Assembly: GCA_000827205.1 (NCBI GenBank)
Contig: KN832555.1
Coordinates: 3,126,696-3,190,695, forward strand
DNA from: Plicaturopsis crispa FD-325 SS-3
Taxonomy: Eukaryota > Basidiomycota > Agaricomycetes > Amylocorticiales > Amylocorticiaceae
Direction of reading: 5' to 3'
DNA length: 64,000 nucleotides
Shown here: positions 11,288 to 40,100 of the stretch, piece after piece
Position numbering within the stretch: position 1 is the stretch's first letter
How the letters are laid out: every line of letters begins with the position of its first letter
The notes under the pieces: model-generated
The model's database searches: none
Told to the model about the DNA's origin: nothing
The model's input: only the letters and a program-made list of their open reading frames with translations
Program-made: the position numbers and the translations under genes

Positions 11288-13000
<1,713 letters not shown>

Positions 13001-13030
13001 GATGGTAGTGGATAGAGAGAGAGAAAATAG
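13001..13030 (-). promoter_or_regulatory. CT-rich leader of enolase
   Basis: On the minus strand the bases before the enolase ATG read CTATTTTCTCTCTCTCTATCC. Pyrimidine-rich blocks next to the start are common in highly expressed fungal glycolytic genes. The site is seen directly; its role is inferred. Confidence 0.45.
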
Positions 13031-13506
13031 ATGCAATCGATCTTTTGTATGGCGTAGACAGGCCAATCTATAGCGCCGAGCACCTTTCTCACGACTCGAT
13101 CATGATTATCGCCGCATCTGGACTTGGCCTGTGCAATCGCAGACCGATGCTAGCCGCAGCGGCATAAAAAGCTGGTCGAATGGACTAGGACGTAGCATGA
13201 GTTTGTGTTCAACAAACAGCGAGTCCGTGAAACAACAGAGACCGTGAAAATCTAGAGGAAGCCCGACCTCCCGAGTCCTTGCAATTTCACGGCGTCGAAT
13301 GATATCACGCATCAGGACGAGGGGGAGTTTTTTAGAGACGGGGCTCGGACGGACGAAGCACGGACGACCACTGATCGAGGCGTGCTCTCGACGGACGGAG
13401 GCAAACGGCCGCAATTGAGTATTCAGACCGATGACGATGATAAAATATAAACGTATCCTGGGCGCACCAGTGACAAGCATACAACGAGTGACAACGAGTC
13501 TGAAAA
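13031..13506. other. enolase promoter region and downstream flank of NOG2
   Basis: Enolase and NOG2 are both on the minus strand, so this 476-base gap is NOG2's downstream flank as well as the enolase promoter. No coding frame with splice support is visible, and no clear TATA box could be assigned. Confidence 0.4.
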
Positions 13507-20289: not shown

Positions 20290-20819
20290 TGCGTTTGTGG
20301 TGGTGGTTAAAAGGAAAGAAAGGGCCCCGGCTGAGAGGTCTCTTGTCCATGGAGCCGGAGACAGGGGAAATTTCATCTCGGATCACCCCCACGTGATCGT
20401 CGCGACCGGCTTTCTCGTCAAAAACTTTGTCAAAAATATTTGGAATTAGATAAATTTGGGAACTAGGAAATTTGCGGGGAAAAAAGAGTACGGAAAGCGT
20501 TGCTAGCGCGCTTGTGTCGTGTACAGGACAGGTACAGGAAGCATAGAGACGCGAAATCACTGGTATGTCCACCCGTTGATCCTGAATTCATTGAAATTTC
20601 ACGGATTCGTAGTCACTCCGCGGCACGGACCGCACAAATAGAGCTCGGCATATGCAACATCTGCTAGAGACGGTGACTTAGAATCTTAGCTTGTAGAAGT
20701 CTCTAGTACTGGAGAATTTCATGTTCGTGTTACCCTCTGGATGGAAGGAATTTAATATTCAGACCAAGTGGAAAGAGGTGCAAAGTGGCGTGGCAGTGGC
20801 GCGAGGCTCGCCAAATATT
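20290..20819. other. intergenic, promoter of the F-box gene
   Basis: Composition is ordinary, and AT-rich toward 20440-20480 and 20740. No gene is seen. Confidence 0.4.
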
Positions 20820-20968
20820 GCTGTTTTCACTCAGCAAGGCGCGCGTCGATTTCTTACTTTTTTTTGGCAAGGGCTAACCCTAGCGTAGGACTTTCTCCTT
20901 CGTCCGCTTTCCTCCTCGATTTCTCCACAACCGCTGCTGCTATTGCCCCATGCTCTTCTGTTATGAGG
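20820..20968 (+). repeat. left inverted arm
   Basis: Matches the reverse complement of 21912-22060. The outer 125 bases or so differ only in a T run (8 T against 6 T plus C). The inner 25 bases are looser (GCTCTTCTGTTATGAGG against GCTCTTCTGCTCTGAGG). On the minus strand it keeps the open frame AAAVVEKSRRKADEGESPTL. Confidence 0.88.
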
Positions 20969-21911
20969 TCTACTTGTCTGTACCGAGGTCTAGGTGTCAC
21001 TTTTACCGTAAATTTTGGGCCAGAACTCGCAATATAGGATCGGAACCTGCTCGAGCACACTTTCTACCAGATGCAATATGCACACACGGCCAGACGGCTT
21101 CACTATCACTCCAGTATGTTGAATGAGATGGCTATAGATTCTGGGTTAGTTTTGGGAGGTTTAGCTTTGCTCTAGGGCACTTGGAACAGTCACAGGGTGA
21201 GTTCGTCAACTGAATATAGTGGATTTGCTCGTGTAGAGGGATGGAGCGGCATTGGAATGCATATATTCTTCATTATAGTGTGAAATACACGAGGGATACA
21301 TACAGTGAAGACCCCCATTTGAGAGCCGTAGCAATCAGCTACTGTAACGGACGAGTTTTCGTTGCTCGACGAGTAGCCCTGGCCAGTCCGACGGCGCCGC
21401 GTTGGGTACAACGTTCTTCCTGCGCGCGCACGGTATCCAGAAGTTGAAAGAGCCGTCGTGCCGTGCAGATAACGAAATGATGCACTCTGGCAGCTCGCGA
21501 CTGGATATTGCGAGTCAATATGTTCGTAGGCCAATTGAAACATGTCTCTCACTTTGTATACCTGTTACGGCCCTTGGTTTGAGCCCCATGACTCCATAGA
21601 GGGGCAATCCAGAAGGTCGCCAGATGCAACGCACTATCGGGCAATATGGAGCCTCGTCTACGCGGTTGGCGCTACGGCATACGGCCTGTGAGCAGAGAAC
21701 CAATATACATAGTGCATAAAGACTCACTATACTCTTCCCACCGATACCCAGACCACACATCGTGATTGTCAAGCGCGACGGAGGGAGCGATCGTGTGCAA
21801 GGAGCGTTGTCTTGCTCTTCCGGTACTCCAGGAGCTCATCGTGCCATGGCACGAGTTCTGAAGCAGATATGCCCGTAGAAATGGTATGCACACATCAGGC
21901 TACATTAGGAT

Positions 21912-22060
21912 ACCTCAGAGCAGAAGAGCTTTTGACGATAGCAGCAGCGGTTGTGGAGAAATCGAGGAGGAAAGCGGACGAAGGAGAAAGTCCTACGCTA
22001 GGGTTAGCCCTTGCCGAAAAAAGTAAGAAATCGACGCGCGCCTTGCTGAGTGAAAACAGC
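21912..22060 (-). repeat. right inverted arm, next to the importin-9 promoter
   Basis: Partner of 20820-20968. Its outer end lies 74 bases before the importin-9 ATG, so it probably overlaps that gene's promoter or leader. Read on the plus strand it carries the same open frame as the left arm, continuing as GLALAEKSKKSTRALLSENS. Confidence 0.88.
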
Positions 22061-22134
22061 TATAGTCACGCGTACGCGACACCGATTTCTGAATCTCTCC
22101 GAGTCTTGTTTTCATACTTTCAACACCGTTCAAA

Positions 22135-25100
22135 ATGGCAACAACGAACGATATTGCTGCTTGTCTTACTGCTACGCTGAGCCCCGACACGAATACGAGG
22201 ATATCCGCTGAATTGAAACTTTCTGAACTCTCCGCTAACCCAGGCTCGTTGACATCCCTGACGCTCTTACTTGCGCTCTACTTACCTCCTCGGCGCGTTC
22301 CACAGAGGCTGGATTATCGTTGTCCCAGCTGATCCTTGCGCAAGCGGCGGACATCTCTCTCCGGCAGATGAGTGCCACGCGTCTTTACCGTTTCCGCAGT
22401 GACTTGATAACGTTTTGACCGATAGCACTCGGCGAGCATTGTGCTTAGAAAGTACGTGACGGAGCGATGGTCGCCATATTTTATTTCGTTCAAGGGATCG
22501 GCGCCGCCAGTTGAAGTAAGTCCTCATTCGACGCGCCGCGAGTCTCGTGTGTGCTCATCACTTTGGCAAGGTAAAAACCCAGATACGACACGCTGTTTTC
22601 CAAGGACTGTCCGACCCGAACCGCAAAGTGCGGACGGCCTGTGTAAGGGTGTTCGTTCCTCGTGATATTGCCGACCAGTCCTCATTCTACGACAGGCTCA
22701 CACTCTGTCATCCATAGCAGCTTGCGATTGGCCTGATGAATATCCAGAGCTCTTATCCGCGCTCATCACATTGCTATCCTCCAAATCTCCCGACTCTGTA
22801 CATGGCGCCATGCAGGTTCTCACAGAATTTATCAAATCTGATCTGACGGAAGACCAAATCTTGCCTGTCCTTCGACAACTCTTACCCGTTCTGCTCTCTA
22901 TCTTGGGTTCCGCGGAGGTGAGAGCCTCTTTATCATTCGTCCATTGTTCCGCATACCCAGATGCCCTACTTGACAGCAACATACACCTCTGACGCGTTCC
23001 CGGACCGTTTCGGTGTTCCGGCAATGCGTAACAGCGCTCTTTATTGTGAAAGAAGCGCATCCCCAGGCAGTAAAAGAGGCGACAGCCTCCGTCCTTCCCG
23101 TGTGGTTGGACGCATTCAGGGTTCTGCTCAACATCGATCCGCAACAAGATGTATCGAACCCCAACAGTTGGGATGGCTTAGCCATCCGCATCCAAATTTT
23201 TAAGGTGACTTCATTCCATATGTCCTCTATCGCATCCTGATGATTTGTTTGAATAGACCCTCGATAACATCTACACCTCTTTCCCGCGCGCAATGGCTCC
23301 GTACCTCAACGACCTCCTAGCCTCATCTCTAACGCACCTACGAGCATATTGGCCGACGTTCGTGCACTATTACATATCCTCCTCCTCCCCCGTCCCAAAT
23401 TCGTCGGAAGATGATTCGATCGAGCTTCCCCAGCTGCTTTGCCCCATAATCGACTTTATCTCGACAGTGGCGCGGGGAGGCAAGGCTAAGGCGTGGTTCA
23501 GCCAGGAGAACCTCACCTCCTTGATCGACGCGGTATTTAATTATACTCAAATGACTGACGACGATGTGAGTGTCATATTATCTCATTTCCAGGTTTGTAT
23601 TCACGTATACGGTGGTCACAGGAGGAAACTTGGGCCAGTGATGCGAATGCGTTCGTCGCGCAAGAAGACGACGAGACACAACAGTACAGCGTCCGAGTTG
23701 CCGGGTTCGATCTCCTTGGTGTAAGCCATAATCTATCAAATGCATGTAGGACATGAGCTGATACGCATATTTTTCTGCTCTCTCTCTCTAGGTCCTTACA
23801 GATCGCGCGCCCGCTCAGACTGCAGCCACATTCCATTCGACGGTCCACAATGTGGTTTCGAACTCACATCAGTCGAGAGACGCTGGCAATCGAGATTGGT
23901 AAATACTAAATACCATATTCCTAATATTTCTACTAATTGCAATGCACCATAGGTGGCGACCCCTCGAAGCTGCTCTCGCGGCCATTGGCTCCCAAGCAGA
24001 AGCAGTCCTCGATTGCGTCGATGACGAGCAAGATGCCGGACGCCCGAAGCCCATAGATATCGAGTATCTTCTATCTGACGTCGTCCCGTCCGTTCTATCT
24101 CTTTCCGGTGCGCATTGTCGCCTTGAGTGCTGGGACGCCTCGTGCTGACTATTGAACGGTAGAATGTCCCTTTTTACAGGGCCGAGGGTTTGTTTTTGCT
24201 AGCCAGTATGCGAAACTCTTGCCCGTTGAGTTGGCGGGGAGGTATTTGGAAGCAGCGATCCATGTCATCGAGGACACCTCCGCAGGAATCCCTGTCAAAA
24301 TCTCGGCAGTTAAAGCTGTCCACAAGTGCGTGCATGTATGTCTCTTCTAGACCCGATTTGTAGCTCAACTTGTTGCTAGTTTCTGCCAAGGAGGGGAAGA
24401 CTCGGCCCTCGTACCGTTTGTCCCACGCATAGCGAAAGACTTGGGTCCTTTCCTCATGGCGACTTCGGACGACACGCTTGGTCTCGTTCTTGACACGTTG
24501 TCCGTGGTCGTCGAGGTCGACGGAAGCAAATGGATCACTGCCGACCTTGCCAACTCATTAGTCCTTGCCGTGCTGGAGGTATGGACCAAGAATATCAAGG
24601 GTATGCCTCGCTCATCTGTCTTGGTTTTCGTCACTACTGAACGGCTTCATATCAGACCCAATATTCTTGTCCATACTCACCGAGATCTTGGCGTCCCTGG
24701 CGTCATCGTCCTCCGCCGGTGTATACGAAACGGTTGTAAAGCAAGCGCTTCCAACCCTGTGCACAGCTCTGGGGTCTGCGCAGCCCCAAGAATCTTGGGT
24801 CGCTGGATCGTCCATTGATCTTGTCAGCAGCCTTGTCCGGGGTGCGCCAGATAGCGGCCTCGGCGATGGTTTCTTCGCGCTTCTTGCTCCTCCTTTGTTC
24901 ACCTGCCTGAAGGTAGCAGAAGACCGAGATGTGCTTCAGGTGCGAGCAGACCAGCACCCTTGAGTGTTCTCCGCTAACTGCTGTGCTGCGTGTGTAGAAC
25001 GGTGTAACCTGTCTCACGCTGATCATTCGCAAAGACTGCAACCAGCTGCTGTCCTGGGCGGATTCGAACGGACAAACCGGCCTTCAAAATGTTCTTGCTC

Positions 25101-26291
25101 TCATTGCTCGGTTGCTCGAAAGCCAGGACGAGTCGGGTGGCCTTGTGATTGGCGACCTGATTATCCATCTGCTTCGAAGGGCCGGAGAGGCAGTCCTCCC
25201 TGTACTGCCCGACCTTCTACGTGCAATGGTAGGAAGAATGACCAGTGCAAAGACAGCGACGTTCTTACAGGTACGCTTCAGCATCGTATGTATCGTAGGG
25301 CAAGATCGCTGATTCGTCTCATCAATTAGAGCCTTGTCATCCCGTTTGCGTTTTTAATTCACAACCAACGGGACACAGTGCTATCGCTCCTTGAATCCAT
25401 GAACGTTGACGGTCGCACCGGCCTGGATATCCTCATCCAGACCTGGTGCGAAAACGCAGAAACCTTCCAAGGCTTCTGGCCCACTCGCATCAGCGACTTG
25501 GCGCTGTCGCAGCTCTATGCGGCGGAGCGCCCGAGTCTCCAGAGTCTGATGGTGAAAGGAGACATAATTTTCAAGCCGGAGACTAAAAATGGTGAGTTGG
25601 CCGTACCTTTTCCTTTCATCGCCACTTCGTTCAACGAATATGCCGTCTGCGTGCTAGTCATCATGACGCGGTCGCGAACAAAATCCAGTATGCGTCGTTA
25701 TCTGGCGCTATTTATCGTGTCTTCTGACAACGGCTGAAACTTGTTTAGTGCCTCACGAGTTCACGTCGATACCGTTCCCGGTGAAGGCGATTAAAATCCT
25801 GCTGCACGACATCCAGTCCAGCGGTGAGTCCGCGACGTTGAATGCGCGGGGAGGGAACCTCGAAGTTGACTCTGACGACGGGGTGAGCGTACCTCCGTGT
25901 ATCGTTTCCTGTGTTTCCGTATTGATTGCTCCTTTCAGGACGACGAATGGGCTGAGGATGAGGCCAGCAACCAAGGCTTTGAGAAGGAGGAATTCGCGTT
26001 CTTGTCTGAGATGCTTGGCCCCAAGGGTCTCGCCTTTGACAATGACGATGTTCTAGACGACAGCGACGACGAGGATCTCAAAACGGATCCTGTATCCCAG
26101 ATGGACATGCAGGTGGGTTATATATCGTATGTCGTTCACTTGGATAATGCTCATGCTCATTCCAGGGACACCTCGTTTCGTTCTTCCGAGAATGCGCGTC
26201 GCGCAACACAAGCAATTTCTCGGGTGTCGTGGATCAATTGACCGCGGAGGAGTCGATGGTCGTTCGTAGGGTCGTTACAGAGACATCCTGA
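22135..26291 (+). CDS. KAP114: importin-9 / Kap114-type nuclear import receptor
   Basis: Karyopherin-beta that in yeast and animals imports histones and TBP. About 1000 residues in about 18 exons. The N-terminal importin-beta domain begins LTATLSPDTNTRISAELKL and continues SLSQLILAQAADISLRQ, then SASIVLRKYVTERWSPYF. HEAT-like helices follow (HTLSSIAACDWPDEYPELLS, LLPVLLSILGSAE, FRQCVTALFIVKEAHPQA). An acidic loop (DDVLDDSDDEDLKTDP) precedes the family-typical end SFFRECASRNTSNFSGVV. Intron 1 (22244-22305) has a GC donor. Intron 2 (22368-22428) fits no GT-AG solution; the best reading is AT-AC, CAG/ATGAGT...GCAC/TCG, giving LRQ-SASIVLRKYV without a gap against known importin-9 LRQ-LASVILKQYV. 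All later joins are GT-AG. The right arm of an inverted repeat ends 74 bases upstream. Confidence 0.9.
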
Positions 26292-37126: not shown

Positions 37127-40100
37127 ATGCACTATCATGGTGCTGCGATATGTGCGTTGGTGTACCTCGTGAATAGTGCTCTAGCGCAGAGCGGCACTCT
37201 CGGATTGTCTGACGGTTTCTTATCATTGGACACGCCTTCATTCTCTGTACAGCTTGTCAAAGACTCTCAGACACTGTACTCCTTGAGGCCCACTGGTGCG
37301 GGATCCTTTGATTTCATCCCCTATGACAAAATGGACGCGCGTCAGGCTGATGGAAACTACCACCTCGGCGACATCACCTTCCGAGCACGAGCAGTCGGTT
37401 CGTCTGCGTGGGCCAGTGGGGACACATCTGCGTCGCGAAAGAAGGTGACCGCAATTTCTGTATCTGGGACCAATCTATCTGCTGCGAATCTAGCGCCCAC
37501 TCTTCCGGAAGACTCCCTCTTGAACATAACTCGGCGTTGGGTGGTCGACGACGGACAGTTCGAGTTATTATTCGACATCACGAATACCCAAAAAGTCGCC
37601 GTTGAGATCGGCGCTCTGGGAACTCCATTAGAGTTCAACAATGTCTGTCTATTTTCGTGCTAATCTAACATGTCGCGTACTAATTCATTTCTCCCATTTC
37701 TCCCGTAGATTTTCACCGGTCGAACAGCCGCTGACACGAATGAGAATTCTAGTCTCTTCGACCCGTATATCGGAAGCGGAGCAGGCTATGTTCAAGTCAC
37801 ACCTTTACTAGGAACCCTCCCACCACTCGTTGTCGTCCCTGTCGGTCAGTCTCCCCTCGAAGGGTGGCGCTTTCTCCCTGAGGACACATCTACATCGCTC
37901 GGATACCAGTCTCAAACCTTCGAGGGCCTGTACGAATGGCAGTTCCACACACTCGCATACGCACAGAACGAGTGGGCGGACGTCTCGCCGTGGAACGCGC
38001 CGACATCGGCAGTGCTGCAGCCAGGCGAGACACGCACATATGGCTTGCAGTTTCGGCTGGCGAGCTCTATTCGGGGAATCGAGGATGAGCTGCTCAGCGC
38101 AGGTCGGCCTGTAGCCGTCGGTATTCCCGGGTACATACTCTCCGAGGATATCGCCGGGAGGCTATACCTGAACTACACCGCATCTGTGCAATCAATATCA
38201 GTCACTCCCGCCAGCGCGCTGAGCGTAGCAGAAGATCCCGACTCCTCTCCACCTGGATGGGTGGCGTATACCGTAAACGGAACATCCTGGGGAAGATCCA
38301 GGATATCAGTGAACTACACCGACGGCACCACCCAGACTGTACACTACTACGTCACGAAACCGGCGGCACAGGCCATCAGCGACCTCGGGACATTCCTCAC
38401 CACTGCCCAGTGGTTCAACGACTCATCTGATCCATTCTCACGTTCGCCCTCAGTCATAAGCTATGACCGTCAAGTAAATGCCGTCGTCAAGGATGAGGCG
38501 AGGGCATGGATCGCTGGGCTCAGCGACGAAGCTGGTGCCGGGTCGTGGCTTGCGGCAACAATGAAGCAATTTGCCCAGCCAAGTGCTAGCGAGGTGGCGC
38601 AACTCGAGGAATTCATTGATAAAACAGTTTCGGGGACGATCCAGAACGCCAATGGTGCGTGTCCTTGAATATATTCTCGAAATATCGCTGACTTGCCGTT
38701 CGATATCATCCAGGGACTGTCAAGAAGGTGATGCATACTATATGGGGAGCCTATGCATATCGATCTCACTGACAGTCCTTCCCATTTATAGTCTGTCTAC
38801 TTCTACCAGCCCGACGCTGTCCCCAACTACACCTATCCATCGGACATCGACTACTCACAATGGTGGTCGTGGAACGTCGCAGCGGCATACGCGACTGATC
38901 GTGCGTACGACTATGTGCACGTTCTATCAGCATACTGGGCGATTTACCGTGTCGCGCGAAATTACCCTGATACGACCAAGCTGCATACATGGCAGTGGTA
39001 TATAGACAAGGCCGTCGCCACTGTCGCAACGATGACAGACGGTGCAGTCGGGTATGCCGACGATGGGCTCATGGAGGAGACAGTCATCCGGTACCTACTC
39101 CAGGATCTGAAACGTGAGGGGCTGGAGGCGAACGCGACTTTGGTTGAGGCACGCATGCGCGCGCGGGAAAATGTCTGGGCTGGGGAGCGGTATCCGTATG
39201 TTGCACTCTCTCGTTCTTATCATACCTGTTATACTGCTAATATGTATGCCTTCGATAGCTTTGGCTCGGAGATGGCATGGGATTCTACTGGCCAAGAGGG
39301 CGTGTACGCTTGGGCGACTTACTTCAACGACACCACCACCGCAACAAACGTCATCAATTCTATCCTCGCGTACCAGCCATCCATCCCGCACTGGGGGTAC
39401 AACGGCAATGCGAGACGATACTGGTACGCCTCCTGATGGTATGTGCACACAAAACGCTGACTGGTAGGTTATCAGGGACAATGTATACGGCGGGAAGCTT
39501 CAGCGTATCGAGCGCCAGATCCATCACTATGGGAGTGGTCTGAACGCTATACCCCTCATCACTCAGTTCAGATCATCGCCCGACGACTACTACCTGCTCC
39601 GTGTCGGATTTGCTGGAATCAGTGGTCCCTTATCGAATATCGACCAAGACGGGTTCGCTTCCGCGTCGTTCCACTCATTCGCAGACACTCTCGCATGGGA
39701 CGCCTACTCAGGCGACTACGGCCCGAATTTCGTGGGCCACGCCTTGGAGATTGGTACATACCTCATAGACCATCCGACGTTTGGCTGGCAGGCCTTTGGC
39801 GGGAACGTAGTAGCGACATCCCCGACCGTAAATGTGCTTCCACGGGACTCGCTGAGGCGCCGCATCTTCATATCACCCCTCGGCACACTCTTGACGCTTG
39901 ACGCGGGTGCGTTTTCGGCGTTCTCGTACGATCCATCTGCCAAAACACTCCAGGTCACGGTGGTGCCCGCTGCGGAGGGCGCAATCAATGCTGCTGCAGC
40001 GCCGCACGGCCGCCTGGTTGTGGAACAGATCGTAGCTGGGGGAGCCGGCGTGTTAGTACCCACGGGCAACCTCACCGTAGATGCGGGGGCGTACGTGGTC

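Follow-up and report, generated by a model that had tools for sequence, protein, structure and literature searches.

How the codons for LRQ are joined to those for SASIVLRKYV is the question raised by a karyopherin gene in a 64,000-nucleotide stretch of fungal DNA, referred to below as the window, which is part of a genome of 33.2 Mb divided among 49 contigs. The two segments lie in different frames, and the unspliced frame runs into a TGA stop, as a preliminary description of the locus had stated. Judged from its predicted product, the gene is an importin-9/Kap114 orthologue, the identity also given in that description. The best matches of residues 1-260 in the PDB were human importin-9 (IPO9; E 2e-30) and yeast Kap114 (E ~2e-13), with the next-best match at only E 1.7e-6. 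With an AT-AC reading of intron 2, the importin-beta N-terminal domain (IBN_N) scored 46.6 bits, where the cut-off is 21. This homology comparison covers residues 1-260, and the later exons were joined via frame and splice signals, with intron 7 set to 23566-23621 (56 nt) in place of a 29-nt version. The resulting model has 17 introns (15 GT-AG, 1 GC-AG, and 1 AT-AC). The gene does not appear decayed, with the whole spliced frame open and 15 introns of the GT-AG class. The positions of the features are collected in Table 1.

Table 1. Positions in the window of the importin-9 gene, the parts of its proposed AT-AC intron, and the enolase gene
Feature	Position	Strand	Description
Importin-9/Kap114 gene	22135-26291	+	18 exons; spliced product of 1,028 residues, 0 internal stops
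Intron 1, read as GC-AG	22244-22305	+	62 nt; CAG/GCTCGT...TTCCACAG/AG
Exon 2	22306-22367	+	Ends ...DISLRQ
Proposed 5' splice site of intron 2, CAG/ATGAGT	22365-22373	+	U2-type consensus save A for G at +1
Intron 2, proposed AT-AC	22368-22428	+	61 nt, phase 0
Candidate branch site, TTGAC	22415-22419	+	A 10 nt before intron end
Proposed 3' splice site of intron 2, CAC	22426-22428	+	AC replaces AG; ATAG ends at 22425, three bases upstream
Exon 3	22429-22515	+	Begins SASIVLRKYVTERWSPYF...
Enolase gene	11300-13250	minus	7 introns, 2 read as GC-AG

Several other features were seen in the window. A gene for the DASH-complex protein Ask1 was found; together with the short introns and the general appearance of the genes, it suggests that the fungus is probably a basidiomycete. 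Two long open frames at 37709-39433 match Pfam DUF5695, a family of unknown function (472 and 279 bits). At 20816-22064 lies a 1.25-kb element with terminal inverted repeats (48-nt arms 98% complementary, 171-nt arms 80%), which ends 70 bp before the start codon of the importin-9 gene. Its arm recurs at the two ends of a comparable stretch on another contig (C39:36732-37991, 92% identity each), so the element has the appearance of mobile DNA.

An AT-AC intron had been placed at this junction in the preliminary description, and direct reading of the bases agrees with it in the two ends, in the coordinates 22368 and 22428, and in the 61-nt span: CAG/ATGAGTGCC spans 22365-22376, and GATAGCAC/TCG on the acceptor side puts C at 22428. 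We enumerated all pairs of intron ends with the first intron base at 22335-22399 and the first exon base at 22400-22459, a length of at least 44 nt, the frame kept, and no stop. The 698 such pairs comprised 14 GC-AG, 4 AT-AC, and no GT-AG pairs, in keeping with the earlier statement that no GT-AG pair rescues the frame. The score of each pair combined an alignment of its spliced peptide with the human IPO9 and yeast Kap114 proteins and the values from matrices for donors and acceptors, which were made from this genome's GT-AG introns (importin-9's own included) with the first and last intron base ignored. By the combined score, the AT-AC pair 22368-22428 came first (45.8); next were an AT-AG pair at 34.4 and, at 30.9, a non-canonical pair with shifted ends. 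By the protein score alone, three 61-nt readings shifted by 1 to 3 bases (37.0, 37.0, and 34.5) stood above the AT-AC pair (34.0), and one tied with it (34.0). The protein evidence favors the 61-nt length; the AT-AC junction is decided by the splice signals, as protein evidence alone leaves it unfixed.

The spacing of conserved residues was examined around the junction. Between RQ and K/R there are six residues in human IPO9, in yeast Kap114, and in the AT-AC reading, which bears out the claim that LRQ-SASIVLRKYV is collinear with the importin-beta N domain. The residue after RQ would be Ser here, versus Leu in the human and Phe in the yeast protein; the ATG read as exon gives Met. When six readings were compared by IBN_N, the AT-AC reading was best at 46.6 bits, the others reaching 46.3, 42.2, 39.7, 39.7, and 38.3 bits, and one or three added residues cost 7 to 8 bits (39.7, 39.7, and 38.3). 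The near-tie at 46.3 bits belongs to a CA-AG reading with an eight-base shift, which was rejected as being without a usable donor (-12); a GT-GG reading (42.2 bits) was also rejected, with a donor score of -5.7.

The donor had been described as GTGAGT with G1 changed to A, and it departs from a near-ideal donor at +1 only. Scored without +1 and +2, it reaches 6.9, compared to 0.25 to 7.55 across 44 GT-AG donors, only 2 of which match or exceed it; with +1 ignored, its score is reached at 9 of 127,960 window positions (both strands, own site counted). We also permuted the 61 nt 200,000 times with base composition kept. In 78 of these shuffles there was an equal donor (+1 ignored) together with NT...AN ends and a 61-nt offset within 10 bases; in 3 there was an equal donor with A...C ends at the collinear place. 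These figures serve as a guide, the test having been devised after the observation. The length of intron 2 falls inside the 41- to 157-nt range of 49 GT-AG introns (median, 55 nt). TTGAC is the best branch word in 1 of 44 GT-AG introns, CT-NA-Y words being found in most; the A of the best branch word lies 8 to 40 nt from the intron end in these 44 introns, and 11 to 18 nt in 29 of them. Counting against the AT-AC reading, the proposed AC is preceded by an AG at a distance of three bases (ATAG/CAC). Two introns or a microexon within the 61 nt were rejected, the shortest GT-AG intron read being 41 nt, as was readthrough or frameshifting, since the unspliced sequence contains a stop and the protein would gain about 20 residues.

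We propose that intron 2 is probably a natural U2-type AT-AC intron, with A...C in place of G...G, a rare double substitution known to be tolerated by the major spliceosome. In the proposed course of splicing, U1 and then U6 would recognize the otherwise strong donor CAG/ATGAGT, the branch would form at a U2-type site, probably TTGAC, and for the second step an A1-C61 pair would replace the G-G contact by which the two ends of an intron usually meet, so that the exons would be joined as LRQ/SASIVLRKYV. The ancestral intron 2 would have been GT-AG. We infer splicing at AT-AC, the branch point, the machinery, and the GT-AG ancestry from genomic sequence. A U2-type AT-AC intron appears to be the best reading because yeast, which has no minor spliceosome, can splice AT-AC introns, with an efficiency second to that of GT-AG, according to passages of PMC6726248, and because the G-G pair is replaceable in yeast exclusively by A-C, according to part of PMC8283771.

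To place this intron among its neighbors, 83 introns were read in ten genes, of which 79 were GT-AG, 3 GC-AG, and 1 AT-AC. Importin-9, enolase, three actins, an actin-related gene, and a proteasome subunit account for 53 of them (49 GT-AG, 3 GC-AG, and 1 AT-AC), and three tubulins for the other 30, all GT-AG once three aligner junctions were re-read. The GC-AG cases are importin-9 intron 1 and two enolase introns; 3 of 83 is above the fungal mean of 1% stated in part of PMC7072748, though not clearly so with such a small number of cases. An enolase junction printed as TT-AC by the aligner was re-read by eye as GC-AG of equal length (GIDA/VNV). A GT-CA junction in the actin gene L030 was re-read as two GT-AG introns flanking a 6-nt exon, and a CG-AG junction in L032, one base over, as GT-AG. 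Among the tubulins, CA-TC in L037 and CC-AG in L039 were re-read as GT-AG, and AC-GG in L039 as two GT-AG introns, again flanking a 6-nt exon. The proteasome introns were placed by eye. One ambiguous junction each in L031 and L032 (107 and 114 nt) and the last junction of L033 (AG-AC, 93 nt) were left out of the counts, as was L038 (158/442 identical, 10 junctions); L040 and L041 lie outside the census. The 6-nt exons are apparently microexons, located at ~1391-1498 of the actin gene L030 and ~2460-2570 of L039, a divergent beta-tubulin gene. The actin genes L031 and L032 are neighbors on contig C1, with under 2 kb between them; one of the two is rather divergent and agrees with the actin reference at 264 of 372 aligned positions.

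For intron 1 of the importin-9 gene, which directly precedes intron 2, none of 987 pairs is GT-AG, a departure that the preliminary description had not mentioned. When the protein score is taken by itself, the GC-AG reading is outranked by eight or more other pairs; intron 1 is read as GC-AG because of its splice signals.

The leading rival to an AT-AC intron 2, though an improbable one, is an assembly error at the site that conceals a true GT-AG intron. Introns 1 and 2 are neighbors and both non-GT-AG, which may point to faulty sequence in this 300-bp stretch. However, to hide a strong GT-AG intron at these borders, two separate base substitutions would have to yield the known A-C pair by accident, the remaining coding sequence is open, and the N count of the window is 0. 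The GT-starting collinear pairs among the top 14, 22372-22432 and 22381-22441, end one base off AG and have donor scores of -3.8 and -4.9, respectively. A 201-base query across the site gave a single match in the assembly, and no second allele was seen.

A GC-AG intron at 22379-22436 (58 nt), an alternative overlooked in the preliminary description, is unlikely to a slightly greater degree. It would give LRQMSATIVLRKYV, LRQMSATIVL, with one residue more in the importin N domain. The class is known, comprising 3 of the 83 introns read, one of them in importin-9 itself, and the Met that would follow RQ is hydrophobic, like the human Leu and the yeast Phe. Nevertheless, its donor CAC/GCGTCT scores -1.17 without +1 and +2, under all 44 GT-AG donors (0.25 to 7.55), its acceptor GGCGAG scores -3.8, and the added residue costs about 7 bits of IBN_N (39.7 versus 46.6). 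Of the 14 GC-AG pairs, the two that are best by protein have poor donors and add one or three residues, which speaks against this class for intron 2.

We give rather little credence to the idea that intron 2 is a relic, in which a U12-type AT-AC intron of the ancestral importin-9 gene came under U2-type recognition without changing its place. Such a conversion would have come before, or as, the lineage lost its minor spliceosome, and a return to GT-AG would have been hard since both ends must change together. A route of conversion from U12 type to U2 type was proposed for sodium-channel introns in a passage of PMC2831892.

Two further readings that use the upstream ATAG are very unlikely. A GC-AG intron at 22374-22425 (52 nt) would keep the frame with this acceptor, but its donor AGT/GCCACG scores -8.1 (-8.10 without +1 and +2), IBN_N falls to 38.3 bits, and residues are added where the human and yeast proteins are collinear. 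The preliminary description had rightly called this alternative the weaker one, yet it adds three residues (MSH) and not four. An AT-AG intron at 22368-22425, combining the A1 donor with ATAG to give LRQHSASIVL, has the merit of a true AG acceptor and ranked second by the combined score (34.4); against it, one residue would be in excess (IBN_N, 39.7 bits), and an A1-G pair would be expected to fail the second step, judging by the yeast results described in part of PMC8283771.

Which spliceosome would remove an AT-AC intron 2 was considered from its signals and from the genome. The U12-type donor consensus is ATATCCTT, and the U12-type branch consensus is TTCCTTAAC. The donor of intron 2 matches the former at 2 of 8 bases and is thus unlike a U12-type donor, which supports the suggestion, made in the preliminary description, that the major spliceosome would act here. 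The best match to the branch consensus is 5 of 9, and at least 5 is also reached in 39 of 44 GT-AG introns, so the branch does not mark the intron as U12-type. In PMC3033335, the U12-type donor is given as ATATCC and the branch as CCTTAAC. A genome search returned six copies of U2 and six of U6 over the cut-off (one U6 match spans 106 bases and five span 117) and none of U12, U6atac, or U4atac. The missing minor snRNAs are suggestive of the lack of a minor spliceosome, and as evidence they are weak because U1 was likewise missed and the control genomes were positive for none of these families. A search for the U11-48K zinc finger found none. One of the basidiomycetes is Cutaneotrichosporon oleaginosum. 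Minor-spliceosome RNA genes were detected in this one fungus according to part of PMC7072748, and convincing minor introns are lacking from both Ascomycota and Basidiomycota according to a passage of PMC10639083. No minor intron of IPO9 was found reported in the literature at the level of titles and abstracts. That intron 2 is a U12-type intron excised by the minor spliceosome is hardly credible: its ends are AT-AC, but the donor, a branch no better than in the GT-AG introns here, the snRNA search, and the described lack of convincing minor introns all stand against it.

Further AT-AC introns were sought ab initio in 264 kb. A first model gave 1 candidate overall. A second model was set aside as having too little power, since it showed no clear enrichment of GT-AG, with 271 GT-AG among 4,786 candidates versus 376 AT-AC and 638 CT-AC; at threshold 6 it returned 57 GT-AG versus 44 AT-AC, and at the highest threshold AT-AC was the most frequent class (4 of 14). 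A third coding model was rejected, the importin exons being separated by only 0.009 nats per base. Donor-dinucleotide enrichment, in which a donor is followed by branch and acceptor, was determined with four patterns. In the broadest, GT scored 144 of 1,043 (13.8%), AT 52 of 746 (7.0%), and the other fourteen dinucleotides 4.8 to 6.9%; in the strictest, GT scored 1 of 10 and AT 1 of 8. No genome-wide excess of AT donors was detectable by this enrichment.

If intron 2 is indeed a U2-type AT-AC intron, it would provide a natural in vivo test of A-C for the G-G end contact in a conserved transport receptor. Comparison of orthologues could reveal which end of the intron changed first, and gene finders limited to GT-AG will misannotate the importin-9 gene. 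Because convincing minor introns are reported to be absent from Ascomycota and Basidiomycota, AT-AC introns in these groups would be expected to have arisen naturally as double mutants within the major pathway.

From its sequence features, intron 2 quite likely belongs to a known, rare kind, the U2-type AT-AC introns. With human SCN4A intron 21 and the sodium-channel set of this type it shares AT...AC ends and G at +5. According to a passage of PMC2831892, recognition as U2-type is improved by A at +4 and by T at +6, and both are present in intron 2. Unlike that set, intron 2 is a 61-nt fungal intron of a karyopherin gene, with its splicing predicted from sequence. GC-AG introns are likewise a tolerated departure from GT-AG, by a single change at +2 compared to the paired changes at +1 and -1 in intron 2. 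Fungal AT-AC introns with the same ends have been catalogued, as frequencies only in the parts of these surveys bearing on them, at 0.019% (PMC7072748) and 0.03% (PMC4084796) of annotated or predicted introns. A close fungal parallel is the AT-AC protointron of yeast SUT635, an instance of AT-AC splicing in a fungus that has no minor spliceosome; the passages of PMC6726248 that describe it also state that no standard yeast intron is normally AT-AC. Whereas the SUT635 protointron lies in a non-coding RNA, intron 2 is needed by the frame of a conserved gene.
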